From an uncultured Anaerolineales bacterium (lineage in GTDB: Bacteria > Chloroflexota > Anaerolineae > Anaerolineales > Villigracilaceae): a DNA stretch of 38,270 nucleotides. Position numbers and translations under genes: made by a program. This document shows, one piece after another, positions 7,847 through 28,359 of this stretch. The notes below the pieces were generated by a model that saw only the letters and a list, made by a program, of their open reading frames with translations, was not told where the DNA came from and made no database searches. The stretch lies in the NCBI GenBank assembly GCA_903873975.1, contig CAIQQN010000271.1, positions 1 to 38,270 on the forward strand. Direction: 5' to 3'. How positions within the stretch are numbered: the first letter of the stretch is position 1; each line of letters opens with the position of its first letter.

Positions 7847-7882
7847 GTGTCATTGCGACATCATCCCGGAGCTCTTCCGGGA
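7847..7882 (+). repeat. Dispersed intergenic repeat GTGTCATTGCGACnnnnTCCCGGnGCTCTTCCGGGA, copy 1
   Basis: Reverse complement found at 24560-24595 with the same spacing. Confidence 0.7.
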
Positions 7883-16529: not shown

Positions 16530-19500
16530 TTACACCTCGCCAGCCAGCAGAGCCATAAAGGCATTCACAACCTTTGGGTCAAAATACTTTCCGGATTGCT
16601 CGCGGATATATTCCAGCGCGTCCTCACGTGTCCACGCCAGGCGGTAGGGGCGGTTGGAGGTCAGAGCGTCATACACATCCACGATGGCGAAAATGCGTGC
16701 CACCTTCGGGATGTCCTCGCCTTTCAGCCCGCGCGGGTAACCGCTGCCGTCCCATTTTTCATGATGGCACCAGGGGATGTGTAGCGCCGGGCGCAGATAG
16801 GTTATCGGGGATAGCAAATTATAGGCATATTGCGGGTGCTGCCGCATCACCTTCCACTCATGTTCATCCAGCGGACCAGCCTTGAGCAGGATGCTATCAG
16901 GAATGGCAATCTTGCCGATGTCGTGCAAAAGGGCACCACGCCGGGCATGTTCCATTTCAACTTCTTCCATGCCCATAGCCTGGATCAGGCGCAGGGTCAG
17001 ATCGGTGACGCGCAGGGTATGGCCCTCGGTTTCTTCATCACGCAACTCCAGGGCTTGGGACCAACCCTGAAGGGTGGCATCATAGGCCAGGGTTAGTTCA
17101 AGGTTGGAATGCTGCAGGTTCTCAAAGAGGTGTCCATTATCAATGGCAATCGCGGTCTGTCCGGCCAGCATTTCAAAGAAGGTGATCCATTCCTGGTCGA
17201 CCGCCATGGGAGTGCGCTGGAAAATTTCGAGCACACCTTGTAATTGTCCCTTGGCAACCAGGGGGATGGCATGGTAGGAAACAAAATTCTCTCCTTCCAG
17301 GTATTGGAGCGGCAGCGAGGCGAACCCGGAAACGGGATGTTCCATCACCTGTTCCACCGCACCGGCCTGGTGGAGGTCGGTAATGTTGATTGCGCGGCGC
17401 TGCAGCGCCAACTGACCGGCTAATCCTTCTCCCAGCCGCAGTTTCATCCCCTCGATGGCATGGACATGGAATCCGCGCCCGGCAGCGTATTCGAGCATCC
17501 TGGTAAGCGGGTTGAACAAAAGCACAGCCGCAGCATCCGCCTTTAATTCCGTGATGATGTGTTCCAGCACAATGCTCAGGGTGACGTGCGTATCCACGCT
17601 GGCGCTGATAGCAGCGTCGATCGCATGCAAGGCAGAGAGACGATGCACGCGCTGCTGGGTCTCTGTAAAAAGACGCACATTTTCAATGGCGACAGAAACC
17701 GAGGATGCAAAGGTAACCAGCAGGCGCAAGTCAGATTCAGTGAAAGCCGCTTTTCGTGAAGCATTATCGAGGGAAATGACGCCGATCACCTTCCCTTTGA
17801 CGATCAAGGGAGCGGAAATCCCACTCTGCACTGCATCGATCTCTTCAATCGCGCCATTTTCGGGGACCTCATAGGCGGCATGGGCGTCATCAATTTTAAT
17901 GGGTATTCGTTCGCGGGCAACGCGGGCAGCATATCCTTTTTGATCCGGGAGAAGGGATAAGCCAATAATACGTGGATCGGAACAACCAAACATGGCGTGC
18001 AGGCGGAGTACACCGTCTGGTTCTGCCAGGAGGATCGTGCCTTTTTCGGCTGAGGGGATTGCATTTCTTGCGCCCGCCAGTATATTCTCAAGAAGAGGCT
18101 GCAGGTCAATGGCACTCGTGAGTGAGATGCTCACCTGTGACAGGCTTTCAAGTTCGGCCAGGCGGTGGCGGAGTTCTTCGAACAGCCGGGCATTTTCGAA
18201 GGCAACGGCCGCTTCGGAGGCCAGGGTCTCCATGAAGATCTGGTCTTCAACAGTGTAAACATCCGCATCGTGGCTCTGGGCGGATATCACGCCGATGATT
18301 TTATCCCGCGCGAGCAGGGGTACCGAAAGGACCGCCCGGGTTGGTTCCGCTTCACCAACCATGATGGGTTTCGCCCCCTTGGTTTTCTGTACATCCTTTA
18401 CTCGCAGCGGCTTTTTACTTTTTATGACGCTCCCAGTAATGCCAGCCTCCACAGGCAGCCTCGTGTTGGGATGGCGGATGCCGCGGTCATACAAGTAGGG
18501 AGCCTCCACCTCCAGGCCATCTTCGGTCAGGAGAGAAACGGTAAAGGCTTCAGCCGGCATGACTTGCCGGGCCGCATGGTGGAGAGCGATGCAAAGTGCT
18601 TCGATTTCCTGGCCGGCGCGAACAATTTCCAGGCTGCCTTGATGCAGGGCGGCTTTGCGCGTCGAAGCGCTCACGGCTTCCTGGTAAAGGCGGGCATTCT
18701 CGAAGGCAACGGCTGCCTGTGCCGCCAGCGTCTGCAGCAGACGCTCATCTTCTTTGCTGAAACGGTTTGACTGCCGGCTTTCCACTACAATGGCGCCAAT
18801 GGCCCGCTCCCCGATCATCAAGGGGACATAGAGACCGGAGTGGATGTCCGGGAAGGCCGAAAAGTAACGCTTATCCGCCTGCACATCACCACTGCGGACC
18901 GTCCTGCCATGTTTGATGACCCAACCGCTCAACCCCTGGGAGGGAGAAGTGAACATCCTGTTCAAACGGTCAATTTCAACCTGGGTCTGGGCGGTATCCA
19001 AGCCAGGTTCACTGAGAGCCAGCAACTCCATGCGTCTGGTTTCGGGATGGTACAGGCGGATGGCGGCATGGTGCCAATCCAGGTTTTTCGACAGGGTTTC
19101 AATCATCTTCTGGGCTATTTTTCTTGGTTCCAATAAGACGCTGATGCTCAGACCATTCTCAAAGAGCACTTCCAGGTCAGTCACCCGGCGGCGGATCTCC
19201 TCTTCAGCCTGCTTGCGGCCAGTGATGTCCTCCAAAGTGCCTTCGTAATAGAGAATCTGCCCAAGATGATCGCGCATGGCCTGTACATTTTCAGAAATCC
19301 AGAGCGTGCCGCCATCTTGCTGATAGACCTCCGATTCGAAATTAACGATCTTTCCCTGTTCGCTCAACTGCGTCATGAACTCTGCACGCCGTTCCGGCTT
19401 TACATAAAATTTGCGGTTAAGGTCGATCACGCTGGCGATCAATTCTTCGGGCGAGGCATAGCCCAACATGCGCGCCAGGGCCGGATTGGCTATGGAGAAT

Positions 19501-22500
19501 CTCCCCGCCAGGGTGGACTGGAAAATACCCTCCATTGAATTCTCAAAGATATTGTGATATTTCGCTTCAGCTAGCCGTAACGCCTCTTCCCTCAGCTTGC
19601 GCTCGGTGATGTCGTGCATGTTAATGACCAGACTGTGGACGGTGGATTCAGCGAGCAGGTTGGTGCCCGTGGCTTCGATCCATCGCCAGGAACCATCCTT
19701 ATGCCGGCGTCGGAAAGCTAGGCGACGGATCTCGCCTGGATGCTGGACTAGCTCATTGAGCATCTGGGCAAGGGAGCCCCTGTCTTCTGCATGGATATAC
19801 TCAAACCCGCTCTTGCCGAGGCGTTGACCGCTGGCCCGGCCCATCATCCTGGCATAAGCCGGGCTCTCATACAGGATCATGCCGCGCGGGTCAACCAGGA
19901 CAACGGCATCCGTATTGTTCTCGGTCAGGAGGCGGTAGTATTTTTCACTATCCTGGAGCGCTTCCCGGGCGTTCTTGCGCTCGCTGATATCGCGACCCGA
20001 ACCCAGGATGGCAATTGGCTGCCCCTGCTCGTCATGGATGAGGGTGAAGGTATTTTCGCTCCAAAACTTCGTCCCGTCTTTTTTGTTGAACTCCAGTTCA
20101 ATGCTCCGGGAGATGAACCGGTCGGGATGGGCGAGGTTTTCGGGCGCGAGGGTTTCGGCAAACAGTTGTAGAGCGCGCTGGAGCGAATCGGGGGACATTT
20201 GCTGGTCGAGCGGGATCGTGTTGATCTCGTCAAGTGTAAAGCCGCGCAGACGCGTAACCGATGGGCTGATATAGGTGGTGCGCAGACTCAAATCCATCAG
20301 CCAGACCGTGTCGCTTATGTTCTCGGCCAACATGCGGTAACGCTCTTCGCTTTGGTGTAGTACCTCGCCGGCATGCTTGCGATCCTCCTCAACTCCCATT
20401 GCTGAGGCGATTATTCCCAACATTCGCTGATCATCATCGCTTGGGATAAAATCATTTTGAAATACAACGCAAAGCGAGCCTACGTTTGATTTCTCGAATT
20501 TAACTGGCTTACCGATATATGTTTGCAGATGGTATTGTTTAACGTTAGGATCGGTGAATGCATAGGGCGAATCTTGCAAGTTCCTGATAATAACGATCTC
20601 GTCTTTATTGGATTTGATAACATCGGCGCAGATGTGTCCCTCGGAAGGGCCAATGGTTCTGTAATCCGGAGGAGTATTCCACGTTCCGAGAGAACACAGC
20701 ATATCTCCCTGGAGTTGATTGTAAAGTGCACAAGTGGCGCCGAACATCTCTCCAGTGAATGCAACCAGCAGGTTGATATTGACAATCGGATCTGAGCCGA
20801 AGCTGAGGAAACATTCGTTGAGTTTCGTAAGCCGTTCCTCCGCCTGCTTGCGCTCGGCGATGTCGGTGAAGACACCCTGGTCATAAAGCGGTTTTCCCGA
20901 GGCATCACAAATGGTAACAGCTTCATCCCGCACCCACACAATATGGCCATCACGTGCCACCAAGCGGTAATCAGATCTAAACGGTTCACCGGTTGCGAGA
21001 TGATGCTTGTTCTCTGCCAATACACGCAGGCGATCGTCAGGATGCAATATTTTTAGCCACAAATCAGGGTCGGCCACCCATTCCTCGGGTGCATAGCCGG
21101 TCAGGTCTTTGATCTGCGGGCCGATGAAGAGGGTTGAGGCTATCTCATCCAGAGCGTCCCGATAGATGACGCCGGGAATTCGTTCCACCAGCGCCTGATA
21201 GGATTGCTGGCTCTCTTTCAATGCCTCTTCCGCCAGCGTGCGCACGGTGATGTCGCGGAACGACCAGACCCTGCCTCTAACTTTTGTCCCCTGCATTAAA
21301 GCATATGACAGCCGCTCAAATACTCTCCCATCCTTGAAATAGAGTGTATCGAAACTTTTCTTCTTCGACTTGTATAATTCCTGAACCTGTTCGAGGAAAC
21401 TTTGCGGGTCGTTCAGTTGATCAAGGACATGCTGAAGAAGGACAGAGTCGTCCTGGCTGGCTATTACCGCCGGCGGGATCCGCCACATTTCCGCAAAACG
21501 TTGATTGGCATAAAGCACCTCGTTTTTACTGCCGACAGCCAGAATTCCATCAGCGGTGGATTGCAAAACCGCCTGTAAATTTGATTCGCTCTTCCGTAAT
21601 GCCTCCTCGGCCTGCTTGCGCTCGGTGATCTCCTGTTGAGCCTGTTCAAAAAGGCGCGCATTATCAATGGCAGCGGCGGTATGGCCGGCCAGCATCTCAA
21701 GCAGTTCCTGATCCCCGGGGGTGTAAGCCTCTGGATGGTAACTCTGCGCGGAGATGATGCCGATGGTCTTTCCTTTGATCTGCAACGGTACGGCCACGAC
21801 CGAAGCGGTGACCGGCCCGCTGCCATACGGCTCGAACTTGATCCCGCTCTTTTTAATCTGCCCCGGGTTGTTCAAGAGCACCGACCGGCCGGAACGAACC
21901 ATATGGCCCCCCAGCCCATGGTCCGCCTTATAAGGATTCGGCGCAACTCTTTTGTTGTTTTCTATGATATAGTTTCCCGCCATCTCATCCCGAATTTCAT
22001 CGTATAAACTGATCACGAAATCTTCACAGGGCATGACTTGTTGCACGGCGCGATGGACTGCCGCGAAAATCTGCTCTGTATCCAGGCTGGCGCCAATCTG
22101 CTCCCCGGCGCGATATACGATCGACCAGCGTTCAACCATGCGGCGGTTCTCTTCTTCCGCTTGCCTGCGCTCGGTGATATCGCGCACAACTGCAGTCACT
22201 TCTTCTGCACCACTGGCAATCATGCGGCCTTCATAATCCCGCACGCCCTGACCTGGAATGGGTAATTGATAATCAAAGATCTGTAATTCACCGGTCTCCA
22301 ATGCAGTACGGATCTTTTCTTCAATCGAACTGGTGAATTCGGGTGGGAGAATATCCCGGCTGCGTTTGCCTACAAAGGTTGGTCCGGATTGGATATAAAG
22401 ATCCCTACGGTCAGCCTTATAGTCCAGGAAAACACCCTGGCTATCCATACGGAACATCAGGTCTGGAATGGCCTGAAGCATCGCCTTTGTACGGGATTCA

Positions 22501-23282
22501 CTCTCGCGCAGGGTTTCTTCCGCCTGCTGGCGCTCGGTGACGTCGCGCGCATTGATGACAATGCCTTTTATTGCCGGATGGTCGAGCAGATTGCTGCCCG
22601 TGCCCTCCAGAGTACACCAGGTCCCGTTCTTATGGCGTAAGCGTATTTGCATGGGTACAGCCGAATGGTCGGAAGTCTGGATCCGCTGGCGGAAAGCCTC
22701 CATGAAAGCGGGGATGTCATCAGGATGGATGTAATCCTGGAGGCCGGCGCCCCCAATGACCTCTTCGATCGAATAGCCCAGGATACTTTGGATGGATGGG
22801 CTGATATAGCGGATGGTAGCATCAGGGTTCAGGATGCAGATAATGTCTGAAGAATTTTCGATCATGGAACGGAAACGGGATTCGCTTTCCTGCAAGGCCT
22901 GTCCCGCCGCCCGCTTTTCCGCGGCCCGCTGGATGGAGAGAACGAGCTGGTCCATATCGCAAGGTTTCTGGAAGTACGTGTATGCCCCGACATTGATGGC
23001 CTCAATGGCCGAATTCTGGGTGGCGTAGCCGGTGAGCAGGATGCACTCGGTATCCGGTGAATGTGCCTTAATGAGCCGCAGCACTTCCAGCCCGGGCATA
23101 TCCTGCAACTTGAGGTCGATCAGAGCCACGTCAATGTCTTCTTTACCCATGCGGGCGAGCGCAGTCCGACCTGTTGCAGCGGGAACGGATTCGATCCCCT
23201 TCACCTTCAGGATGTCGGTCAGACTCGCCCGCAGGTTGGGGTCATCGTCCACGAGCAGAACTCTAATTGTCTTACGATCCAT
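16530..23282 (-). CDS. Giant REC-(PAS/GAF)n-HD-GYP response regulator, putative c-di-GMP phosphodiesterase
   Basis: 2250 aa: N-terminal REC (VLLVDDDPNLRASL, DVALIDLKLQDMPG), about 7 PAS and 6 GAF segments by reading, C-terminal HDIGKIAIPDSILLK...HHEKWDGSGYPRGLKGEDIP (HD-GYP). Confidence 0.95.
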   Translation of the reverse strand: MDRKTIRVLLVDDDPNLRASLTDILKVKGIESVPAATGRTALARMGKEDIDVALIDLKLQDMPGLEVLRLIKAHSPDTECILLTGYATQNSAIEAINVGAYTYFQKPCDMDQLVLSIQRAAEKRAAGQALQESESRFRSMIENSSDIICILNPDATIRYISPSIQSILGYSIEEVIGGAGLQDYIHPDDIPAFMEAFRQRIQTSDHSAVPMQIRLRHKNGTWCTLEGTGSNLLDHPAIKGIVINARDVTERQQAEETLRESESRTKAMLQAIPDLMFRMDSQGVFLDYKADRRDLYIQSGPTFVGKRSRDILPPEFTSSIEEKIRTALETGELQIFDYQLPIPGQGVRDYEGRMIASGAEEVTAVVRDITERRQAEEENRRMVERWSIVYRAGEQIGASLDTEQIFAAVHRAVQQVMPCEDFVISLYDEIRDEMAGNYIIENNKRVAPNPYKADHGLGGHMVRSGRSVLLNNPGQIKKSGIKFEPYGSGPVTASVVAVPLQIKGKTIGIISAQSYHPEAYTPGDQELLEMLAGHTAAAIDNARLFEQAQQEITERKQAEEALRKSESNLQAVLQSTADGILAVGSKNEVLYANQRFAEMWRIPPAVIASQDDSVLLQHVLDQLNDPQSFLEQVQELYKSKKKSFDTLYFKDGRVFERLSYALMQGTKVRGRVWSFRDITVRTLAEEALKESQQSYQALVERIPGVIYRDALDEIASTLFIGPQIKDLTGYAPEEWVADPDLWLKILHPDDRLRVLAENKHHLATGEPFRSDYRLVARDGHIVWVRDEAVTICDASGKPLYDQGVFTDIAERKQAEERLTKLNECFLSFGSDPIVNINLLVAFTGEMFGATCALYNQLQGDMLCSLGTWNTPPDYRTIGPSEGHICADVIKSNKDEIVIIRNLQDSPYAFTDPNVKQYHLQTYIGKPVKFEKSNVGSLCVVFQNDFIPSDDDQRMLGIIASAMGVEEDRKHAGEVLHQSEERYRMLAENISDTVWLMDLSLRTTYISPSVTRLRGFTLDEINTIPLDQQMSPDSLQRALQLFAETLAPENLAHPDRFISRSIELEFNKKDGTKFWSENTFTLIHDEQGQPIAILGSGRDISERKNAREALQDSEKYYRLLTENNTDAVVLVDPRGMILYESPAYARMMGRASGQRLGKSGFEYIHAEDRGSLAQMLNELVQHPGEIRRLAFRRRHKDGSWRWIEATGTNLLAESTVHSLVINMHDITERKLREEALRLAEAKYHNIFENSMEGIFQSTLAGRFSIANPALARMLGYASPEELIASVIDLNRKFYVKPERRAEFMTQLSEQGKIVNFESEVYQQDGGTLWISENVQAMRDHLGQILYYEGTLEDITGRKQAEEEIRRRVTDLEVLFENGLSISVLLEPRKIAQKMIETLSKNLDWHHAAIRLYHPETRRMELLALSEPGLDTAQTQVEIDRLNRMFTSPSQGLSGWVIKHGRTVRSGDVQADKRYFSAFPDIHSGLYVPLMIGERAIGAIVVESRQSNRFSKEDERLLQTLAAQAAVAFENARLYQEAVSASTRKAALHQGSLEIVRAGQEIEALCIALHHAARQVMPAEAFTVSLLTEDGLEVEAPYLYDRGIRHPNTRLPVEAGITGSVIKSKKPLRVKDVQKTKGAKPIMVGEAEPTRAVLSVPLLARDKIIGVISAQSHDADVYTVEDQIFMETLASEAAVAFENARLFEELRHRLAELESLSQVSISLTSAIDLQPLLENILAGARNAIPSAEKGTILLAEPDGVLRLHAMFGCSDPRIIGLSLLPDQKGYAARVARERIPIKIDDAHAAYEVPENGAIEEIDAVQSGISAPLIVKGKVIGVISLDNASRKAAFTESDLRLLVTFASSVSVAIENVRLFTETQQRVHRLSALHAIDAAISASVDTHVTLSIVLEHIITELKADAAAVLLFNPLTRMLEYAAGRGFHVHAIEGMKLRLGEGLAGQLALQRRAINITDLHQAGAVEQVMEHPVSGFASLPLQYLEGENFVSYHAIPLVAKGQLQGVLEIFQRTPMAVDQEWITFFEMLAGQTAIAIDNGHLFENLQHSNLELTLAYDATLQGWSQALELRDEETEGHTLRVTDLTLRLIQAMGMEEVEMEHARRGALLHDIGKIAIPDSILLKAGPLDEHEWKVMRQHPQYAYNLLSPITYLRPALHIPWCHHEKWDGSGYPRGLKGEDIPKVARIFAIVDVYDALTSNRPYRLAWTREDALEYIREQSGKYFDPKVVNAFMALLAGEV

Positions 23283-23631
23283 CTCAACTTCTCCTAGAGG
23301 AGGAACCGCTCCCCCATTTTACTCAAACCAACCGATAGGGAATTCATGAAAAGGCGGACACCAACGCCTCGAAAAAAGATGTGAGGGATTCCGACAAGTT
23401 ACATTATATACCCTGGACCTTATGCATGGATTAGAAGAGGGGTCAGGGGAAGAGCAGGAGGCAGAAGGCGGGAGGCGGGCATTGTAGATTGATAATTTGA
23501 GATCCCCAAAGGGGACGCTGTTGAAGATCGAAGAATTAAAAAACATTTACCACAAAGAGCAAGAAGGAAAAGAACGTTGAATGTCAAGCGTTGAACGTCA
23601 AAGAGGGTGTACAGGCATCGGCACACAAAGT

Positions 23632-23771
23632 ATTCGTTTGTTTTCGGGAAAAAAGAGGAACAAACGAATACCTCCCGGTTCCCGCGTTCTCTTCGGGGCC
23701 TTCTTCATTATAAACTCCATTGGTAGGCATGAGGTTCTGACCACAATCGATTTTAAGCAAAACAAACGAAT
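23632..23771. repeat. Tripartite structured element A: 11-bp hairpin arms (23632-23642/23659-23669) plus a third arm (23761-23771)
   Basis: attcgtttgtt-ttcgggaaaaaagagg-aacaaacgaat ... aacaaacgaat. Confidence 0.85.
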
Positions 23772-23871
23772 CCCCTCCGGAAGGCACCCCTCGGGGACGA
23801 TGTACCCTTTGGGGAGGAGAGTAGAGAGGGGAGAACAGAGAGTTGAGAGCCGCCTCGACCAGGCCTCGGTT

Positions 23872-24011
23872 AGTTGTTTGTTTTCGGGAAAAAAGAGGAA
23901 CAAACAACTGTGCCCTGCGAGGGGATTCTCCAGTGAGAGGTCCTTCATTACAAAGTTACCTTGTGAGCGTGAAAATTCGACAAGAATTGTTTTTAAGCAA
24001 ATCAAACAACT
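23872..24011. repeat. Tripartite structured element B: arms 23872-23882/23899-23909 plus a third arm (24001-24011)
   Basis: agttgtttgtt-ttcgggaaaaaagagg-aacaaacaact ... atcaaacaact; exactly 240 bp from element A, ungapped. Confidence 0.85.
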
Positions 24012-24091
24012 CAAACAATGTGCTCTATCGACGACTTGTCCCACGGGGATCCCCTGGCGGGGACGATGTGCTTCGCAATGTCGCCAAACCG

Positions 24092-24429: not shown

Positions 24430-24559
24430 GCTGCCAGCGCACATCCCTGCCACGAAGTGATTCTAAAACATATGTTCTAATTCGTCAAGGGTAACTGCTT
24501 ACACAAGGTCTCCAATGGTTTAACCAACCTGGTTCAACTGTCATTGCGATGGGATTGCT

Positions 24560-24595
24560 TCCCGGAAGAGCACCGGGACAAAGTCGCAATGACAC
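24560..24595 (-). repeat. Dispersed intergenic repeat GTGTCATTGCGACnnnnTCCCGGnGCTCTTCCGGGA, copy 2 (inverted relative to 7847-7882)
   Basis: Reads tcccggaagagcaccggga-caaa-gtcgcaatgacac on the + strand. Confidence 0.7.
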
Positions 24596-27769: not shown

Positions 27770-28092
27770 GATTCTTCTCCATTCTGCCGGCGGACACTGC
27801 GTTTCACTACGGGTCCTACTACAAACATTACTAACTTTCGGCGATGTTCACCCCCTGTGATTTGTTGGAAAACCACGCTTCCAAAACATCCCCCCCATTC
27901 ATCTTCTCAGCATAGCGATTCCCAGAAAACCGCGGACACACTAGGACGGATTTAGTCATATTGTACAACGTAAATGCTCATTCTTCCCTTGACATTGCAT
28001 GGCAGCCGTGATACGCTTGCGCCCGTTGTGCCCCAGGCTCACCTGAAGTGGGCTGGTCAGGGCACGATAAAATTTTATGCAGGAGAAAGAAA

Positions 28093-28305
28093 ATGTCAGA
28101 AGAACGTCACGTTGGTACCGTCAAGTGGTTCAATGCCACCAAGGGCTTCGGCTTCATTGGCCGCGAGGATGGCGAGGATGTATTCGTGCACTTCTCAGCC
28201 CTCCAGATGGAAGGCTACAAGCGCCTGGAAGAGAACCAGAAGGTTGAGTTCTCCATCGAGCAGGGGCCCAAAGGACTCCAGGCATCGAACGTCGTACCCC
28301 TGTAA
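28093..28305 (+). CDS. CspA-family cold-shock protein
   Basis: [31 protein letters not shown] with RNP1/RNP2; RBS caggagaaagaaa before ATG 28093. Confidence 0.95.
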
Positions 28306-28327
28306 AGTACATCATTGAACAGACGAG

Positions 28328-28359
28328 AACCGGGTTCCAAATGGAACCCGGTTTCTTTT
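28328..28359 (+). terminator. Rho-independent terminator downstream of the cold-shock gene
   Basis: aaccgggttcc-aaat-ggaacccggtt-tctttt. Confidence 0.85.

Follow-up and report, generated by a model that had tools for sequence, protein, structure and literature searches.

Two hairpins that share a loop, and whose stems differ only by compensated changes, raise the question of whether they are parts of a structured RNA or of something else. They lie in a stretch of 38,270 nucleotides (the window, contig CAIQQN010000271.1) from an uncultured Anaerolineales bacterium, and the initial annotation saw in them structure that is kept rather than sequence. Its description of the pair was borne out by direct reading and repeat finding: copy A is ATTCGTTTGTT-ttcgggaaaaaagagg-AACAAACGAAT (23632-23669), copy B is AGTTGTTTGTT-ttcgggaaaaaagagg-AACAAACAACT (23872-23909), both are ungapped, the spacing from A to B is exactly 240 bp and the 16-nt loops are identical. 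Each stem has 11 perfect pairs (13 in A, counting the adjoining GT/AC), and the two positions at which the stems differ (T/A to G/C and C/G to T/A) are both compensated. The additional remark that the stem differences are amino-acid changing, and so speak against protein-level conservation, carries no weight, since the open frames that cross the hairpins match nothing in Pfam and look spurious. Palindromes are over-represented generally in the window, which holds 15 inverted repeats (arms of at least 11 bp, loops of 3-20) compared with 0-1 in 20 Markov shuffles.

The hairpins of A and B are merely the left ends of units of about 138 bp with fixed ends (Table 1), which supports the earlier view of them as discrete intergenic elements. 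The element consists of a left-end (LE) hairpin, then conserved sequence around TTCTCTTCGAGGGCTTCTTCATTATTAA, and finally a right end (RE), which repeats the 3' arm of the stem, as a direct copy at 23761-23771 in A and, with one change, at 24000-24011 in B. In many copies an extra 5' partner arm precedes the RE, which then forms its own shorter hairpin, and the two unlike hairpins, with loops of 16 nt and about 10 nt, flank a sequence-conserved middle. The length is near-constant, and the element has no recognisable coding capacity.

Table 1. Features of the two element copies and the adjoining gene (positions in the window)
Feature	Position	Strand	Basis and remarks
Copy A, whole unit	23629..23775	+	Covariance model R1, 152.9 bits, positions 1-147 of 147; homology to other copies ends here
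Copy A, left-end hairpin	23630..23671	+	Arms 23630-23642 and 23659-23671, 16-nt loop; inverted-repeat finding
Copy A, conserved internal motif TTCTCTTCGGGGCCTTCTTCATTATAAA	23687..23714	+	Near-invariant columns; no excess folding
Copy A, right end	23746..23771	+	Weak 5' arm ATCG, then GCAAAACAAACGAAT (23757-23771), the third copy of the stem arm
Copy B, whole unit	23869..24015	+	R1, 119.7 bits, positions 1-147
Copy B, left-end hairpin	23872..23909	+	11-bp arms, 16-nt loop
Copy B, conserved internal motif GGTCCTTCATTACAAA	23939..23954	+	Conserved alignment columns
Copy B, right end	23986..24011	+	ATTG ... GCAAATCAAACAACT (23997-24011)
Gene for 2250-aa receiver-PAS-GAF-HD protein	16530..23282	-	Both copies on its 5' side; points away from the elements

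BLASTN gave 22 matches in this genome (G000) and also detected the repeat in five others of the 11 genus members. The covariance-model search that the initial annotation had proposed, run with a model (R1) built from 28 copies, brought the total to 36 copies in this genome, with 28 more among five congeners (16 in G005, 4 in G009, 3 in G004, 3 in G007 and 2 in G003), with compensatory changes in the left stem. Across 149 genomes of the family R1 matched in six only, all in one of 26 genera, and no copies were found in the 138 further genomes that sampled the other 25 genera. The conserved core also has an exact match, among GTDB contigs, to an uncultured Anaerolineales bin. Copies often stand in close pairs or triples. 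There was no Rfam match at the gathering score, and a phage or plasmid origin was rejected after searches of phages, plasmids and viral contigs gave no match. The hairpins belong to a small, apparently undescribed family of ~138-base repeats that has spread in one Anaerolineales genus, most likely as mobile DNA that is moved passively.

We then asked what the pairing of the LE stem reflects, using a structure-fitted alignment of 63 distinct copies, in which the fitting favours the structure and relatedness inflates the counts. The stem was paired in 93.2% of cells, compared with 87.0% after shuffling and 35-63% in slid controls; cells changed on both sides numbered 60 against 21.5 in shuffles, and 6 of the 11 pairs had changed on both sides. 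Pairing of the LE stem is thus clearly maintained through compensatory change, and to this extent the claim that structure is kept holds. Its other half, that sequence is not, does not hold: the inner stem GTTTGTT/AACAAAC is invariant except at one position (28-copy A1 alignment). Variation in the outer bases follows, for the most part, a small number of subfamily types, and several mixtures of these are uncompensated. A simple control was revealing, since copies of the arm that do not pair with each other change just as much in step. All four arms co-vary in the 42 copies with every arm readable, each arm pair agreeing beyond shuffles; the strongest agreement is that of the non-pairing direct copies LE3 and RE3 (z 6.8), compared with z 5.8 for the pairing arms LE5 and LE3. 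LE5 and RE3 match in inverted orientation at 153 of 168 positions, and over 13 bp in copy A; terminal inverted repeats are therefore present. The near-invariant inner stem and the co-changing non-pairing arms do not favour an RNA reading; the covariation is that of an element with one motif common to its ends, and is not specific to RNA.

A structured cis-regulatory or stand-alone RNA, as the initial annotation implied, would be in keeping with the compensated left hairpin, the near-constant length and, on the reader's strand, more T-G than C-A in the extension of the stem. We consider it very unlikely, because, besides the lack of an Rfam match and the equal co-change of non-pairing arms, only the ends fold. 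Whole-unit folding (z -2.36 and -2.39 on the two strands) is carried by the end hairpins, the middle of the element is no more structured than chance (mean z -0.1), and the two strands do not differ in how well they fold. An internal sigma-70 promoter was rejected: promoter-like matches are not in excess on the reader's strand, and only weakly so on the gene-sense strand (20 of 60 copies with a score of at least 9, compared with 21% of shuffled sequences). At the gene for a SAM hydroxide adenosyltransferase (SAM_HAT), moreover, a conserved promoter-like GGTCTTGGGATAAAATAGG, presumably the promoter, separates the element from the gene downstream; this argues against a leader RNA, from which the element would be excluded. 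Two further candidates failed: an intrinsic terminator in the middle, where there is no excess folding, and a gene-sense-strand leader peptide (ATGAAGAAG...), whose frame is interrupted or stops early in several copies. The locus is a case of a textbook RNA covariation signal that most likely comes from mobile DNA rather than from RNA.

Several observations bear on mobility. In 69 pairs of copies at least 80% identical, with members on different stretches, flank identity amounted to about 4/10 over the first 10 bp, falling to about 3/10 further out; being near background immediately outside the unit, it indicates that homology ends at the ends of the element. Segmental duplication holds only for the C109 pair, whose flanks match too. 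Copies cluster by genome (11 label changes compared with 24.9 in shuffles), and a tree with mixed branch supports, built from short sequences, groups them by genome and not by neighbouring gene. Exact right-end matches in the genus all fall inside ~138-bp copies (38/38); the five genus genomes without copies had zero matches to the right-end pattern, and a control pattern also gave zero. Inspection by eye of the flanks of 60 copies revealed no evident target-site duplication; some transposon classes make none. The annotation had named a characterised IS or MITE end as what might explain the hairpin, and neither a parental insertion sequence, an autonomous partner nor a transposase with these ends was found in the genus, whose genomes are draft MAGs, which break at repeats and could hide one. 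No clean, base-exact empty site was obtained, and an element-free orthologous locus is present at SAM_HAT in G004.

We put at roughly 60% the probability that A and B are both copies of a MITE/REPIN-like repeat that is mobile but non-autonomous, measures ~138 bp, ends in hairpins and is seen in this genus alone. This reading draws on the discrete unit with fixed ends, the two terminal palindromes that share an arm, the genome-specific subfamilies and the lack of coding capacity. An enzyme acting in trans would read the end sequence together with the hairpin, so that a diverging subfamily would change the arms of the element in step. That no target duplication was evident suggests that the enzyme may use a single-strand (HUH-like) route. 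The near-confinement of surviving copies to one orientation upstream of genes would reflect either insertion that is coupled to strand and transcription or harm done by other placements.

In a more specific form of this explanation, the element would be a true REPIN, moved by a Y1 (RAYT) transposase of IS200/IS605 type. The hairpin doublet and the lack of evident target duplication fit, and single-domain Y1 proteins occur in G003, G004, G005 and G010, but at the four single-domain loci tested the element ends do not flank the gene, and G010 has its Y1 gene yet no element. In this genome, which has the most copies, the only two Y1-like domains are both inside receiver-type proteins of ~525-570 aa, and neither a GTAG/CGTC tag nor a common tetranucleotide tag adjoins the hairpins. 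A true REPIN is accordingly unlikely, and an IS200/IS605 parent was rejected because its ends are not shared with the element. The receiver-type proteins (L065:1456-3033 and L066:1378-3081) are receiver-like at the N-terminus and carry a Y1 transposase-like domain at the C-terminus, and Y1 frames of similar size are found in all 11 members of the genus; they are possibly a domesticated transposase.

The position of the copies relative to genes was analyzed with open frames called mechanically at a minimum length of 150 aa. The gene on the LE side points away from the element in 50 of 55 cases and that on the RE side in 25 of 54 (25:29; Fisher p 4e-7). Against a large-gap background of 57% away, the LE bias has a binomial p of 4e-8, which treats copies as independent though tandem ones are not. 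When each locus contributed a single gene, and that gene was required to match Pfam or to be clearly similar to an orthologue that does, 36 LE genes point away and 3 toward (binomial p 1e-6), and in a tandem-gene context the ratio is 22:2. Copies A and B conform, both lying 5' of the 2250-aa gene, at 347 and 587 bp from it. Two neighbouring palindrome families of the same genome lack the bias, in small samples (8:4 and 7:10, counted at sites away from elements). Inheritance of the orientation from the adjoining GCCGCCTCGGCYA or CCCGGAAGAGCACCGGGA repeats was rejected, as those are not clearly biased, and a replication-strand explanation is unlikely, as the right-hand genes are unbiased.

Copies also recur at the same genes. 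They lie upstream of SAM_HAT in three species (G000, G005 and G007), and in two species each upstream of an aromatic amino-acid lyase (G000, G005), atpA (G005, G009) and a korA-like operon (G005, G009). By a rough hand estimate that assumes 1500 possible sites, 6 shared genome pairs were seen where about 0.6 are expected. Since the copies at shared genes sit on different, genome-specific branches of the tree, either insertion recurred or conversion overwrote older copies. It is possible, though we hold it only tentatively, that separate species have each acquired the element on their own at the same housekeeping genes, in a single orientation and a short way upstream of the promoter. If so, transposition would be coupled to single-stranded or supercoiled DNA behind active promoters, or a mobile hairpin would be repeatedly recruited as a promoter-upstream regulatory part.

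A neutral MITE would not be expected to show a 50:5 orientation bias or to recur at the same genes, and regulation by recruited copies is a serious rival. The element would then be an oriented cis-acting DNA element (a protein-binding site, upstream activator or insulator) recruited from a repeat, with the arms as half-sites for one DNA-binding protein, maintained on the upstream side of promoters by selection and homogenised in each genome by gene conversion. The one-sided orientation, unmatched by the other repeats of the genome, the presence upstream of the same genes in several species, the nearly invariant inner arm and the position upstream of the promoter-like motif at SAM_HAT all point this way. 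Nevertheless, the linked genes have no common function (uvrB, ftsY, ftsK, secA, atpA, fhs, the aromatic lyase and others), and the element stands at anything from about 120 to more than 600 bp from the start codon. In G004, SAM_HAT keeps the promoter-like motif and lacks the element, which is thus not essential there, and the aromatic-lyase orthologues of G009, G006, G008, G010 and G001 have no copy. On balance we regard such a recruited element as doubtful. Under the preferred reading of a mobile repeat, the strong preference for the upstream side of genes is a puzzle, and whether insertion or selection produces it is a testable question.

Several further sequences stood out. Between the element and SAM_HAT, L146 holds a degenerate relative, GGAATTGTT...AACAATTCC ... 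ATCATGAAGAAG ..., unreported by the model; decayed copies seem to litter such regions. In L018/L144 (around C234:25895-26027) a truncated copy is fused to a frame with repeats resembling S-layer homology domains. In L234 (G001, which has no full copies), an LE-like hairpin with other arms, CACTCGTTCCTCTCTCGTTCCGCGAAACGAGTG, stands upstream of an aromatic amino-acid lyase gene. An abundant palindromic repeat ending GCCGCCTCGGCYA (118 matches within one mismatch; L067-L096, e.g. window 23849-23861) often abuts the left end, and may replace the outermost arm bases of the element. A CGTC-preceded palindrome, CGTCCCGGTGCTCTTCCGGG (reverse strand; window 24561-24584 and 7858-7881, and e.g. G000:C5:23030-23053), with 26 matches within two mismatches in this genome, often flanks the right end and resembles CGTC-tagged REPs (PMC3733652). 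A longer palindromic repeat at window 24539-24592, which starts TGTCATTGCGA and ends TCGCAATGACA, has the CGTC-type palindrome inside. A GC-rich hairpin, GGGGTGTTGG...CCAACACCCC, recurs after the GCCGCCTCGGCTA repeat in L068, L092, L094 and L095. Elsewhere in the window (28051-28357, + strand), an Rfam cspA thermoregulator match of 87 bits lies over a cold-shock-like gene.

Among known systems, the element resembles REPINs and REPs in being a short, extragenic, non-coding and dispersed unit of defined extent, with hairpin-forming inverted ends, occurrence in clusters and compensatory hairpin changes, which have been reported for mobile REPINs (PMC3116915). It differs in that its two hairpins are unlike and flank a conserved middle, in having neither the GTAG/CGTC tag nor a RAYT flanked by the repeat, and in its strong orientation toward the 5' end of the neighbouring gene. 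Like MITEs such as the Correia elements of Neisseria (reviewed in PMC10969869), it is short, dispersed and intergenic, often upstream of genes, and has terminal inverted repeats; unlike them, it shows no target duplication, parental insertion sequence or clear internal sigma-70-like promoter, and its left-end hairpin is formed with an additional, inverted copy of the arm inside the element. GTAG/CGTC-tagged palindromic repeats (PMC3733652) are likewise palindromic and dispersed, whereas the element is untagged and a longer, two-hairpin unit. With the ends of IS200/IS605 it shares hairpins at both ends and the absence of target duplication, although no transposase sharing its ends was found. 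The end hairpins of IS608 and ISDra2 are subterminal, whereas those of the element stand at its very tips.
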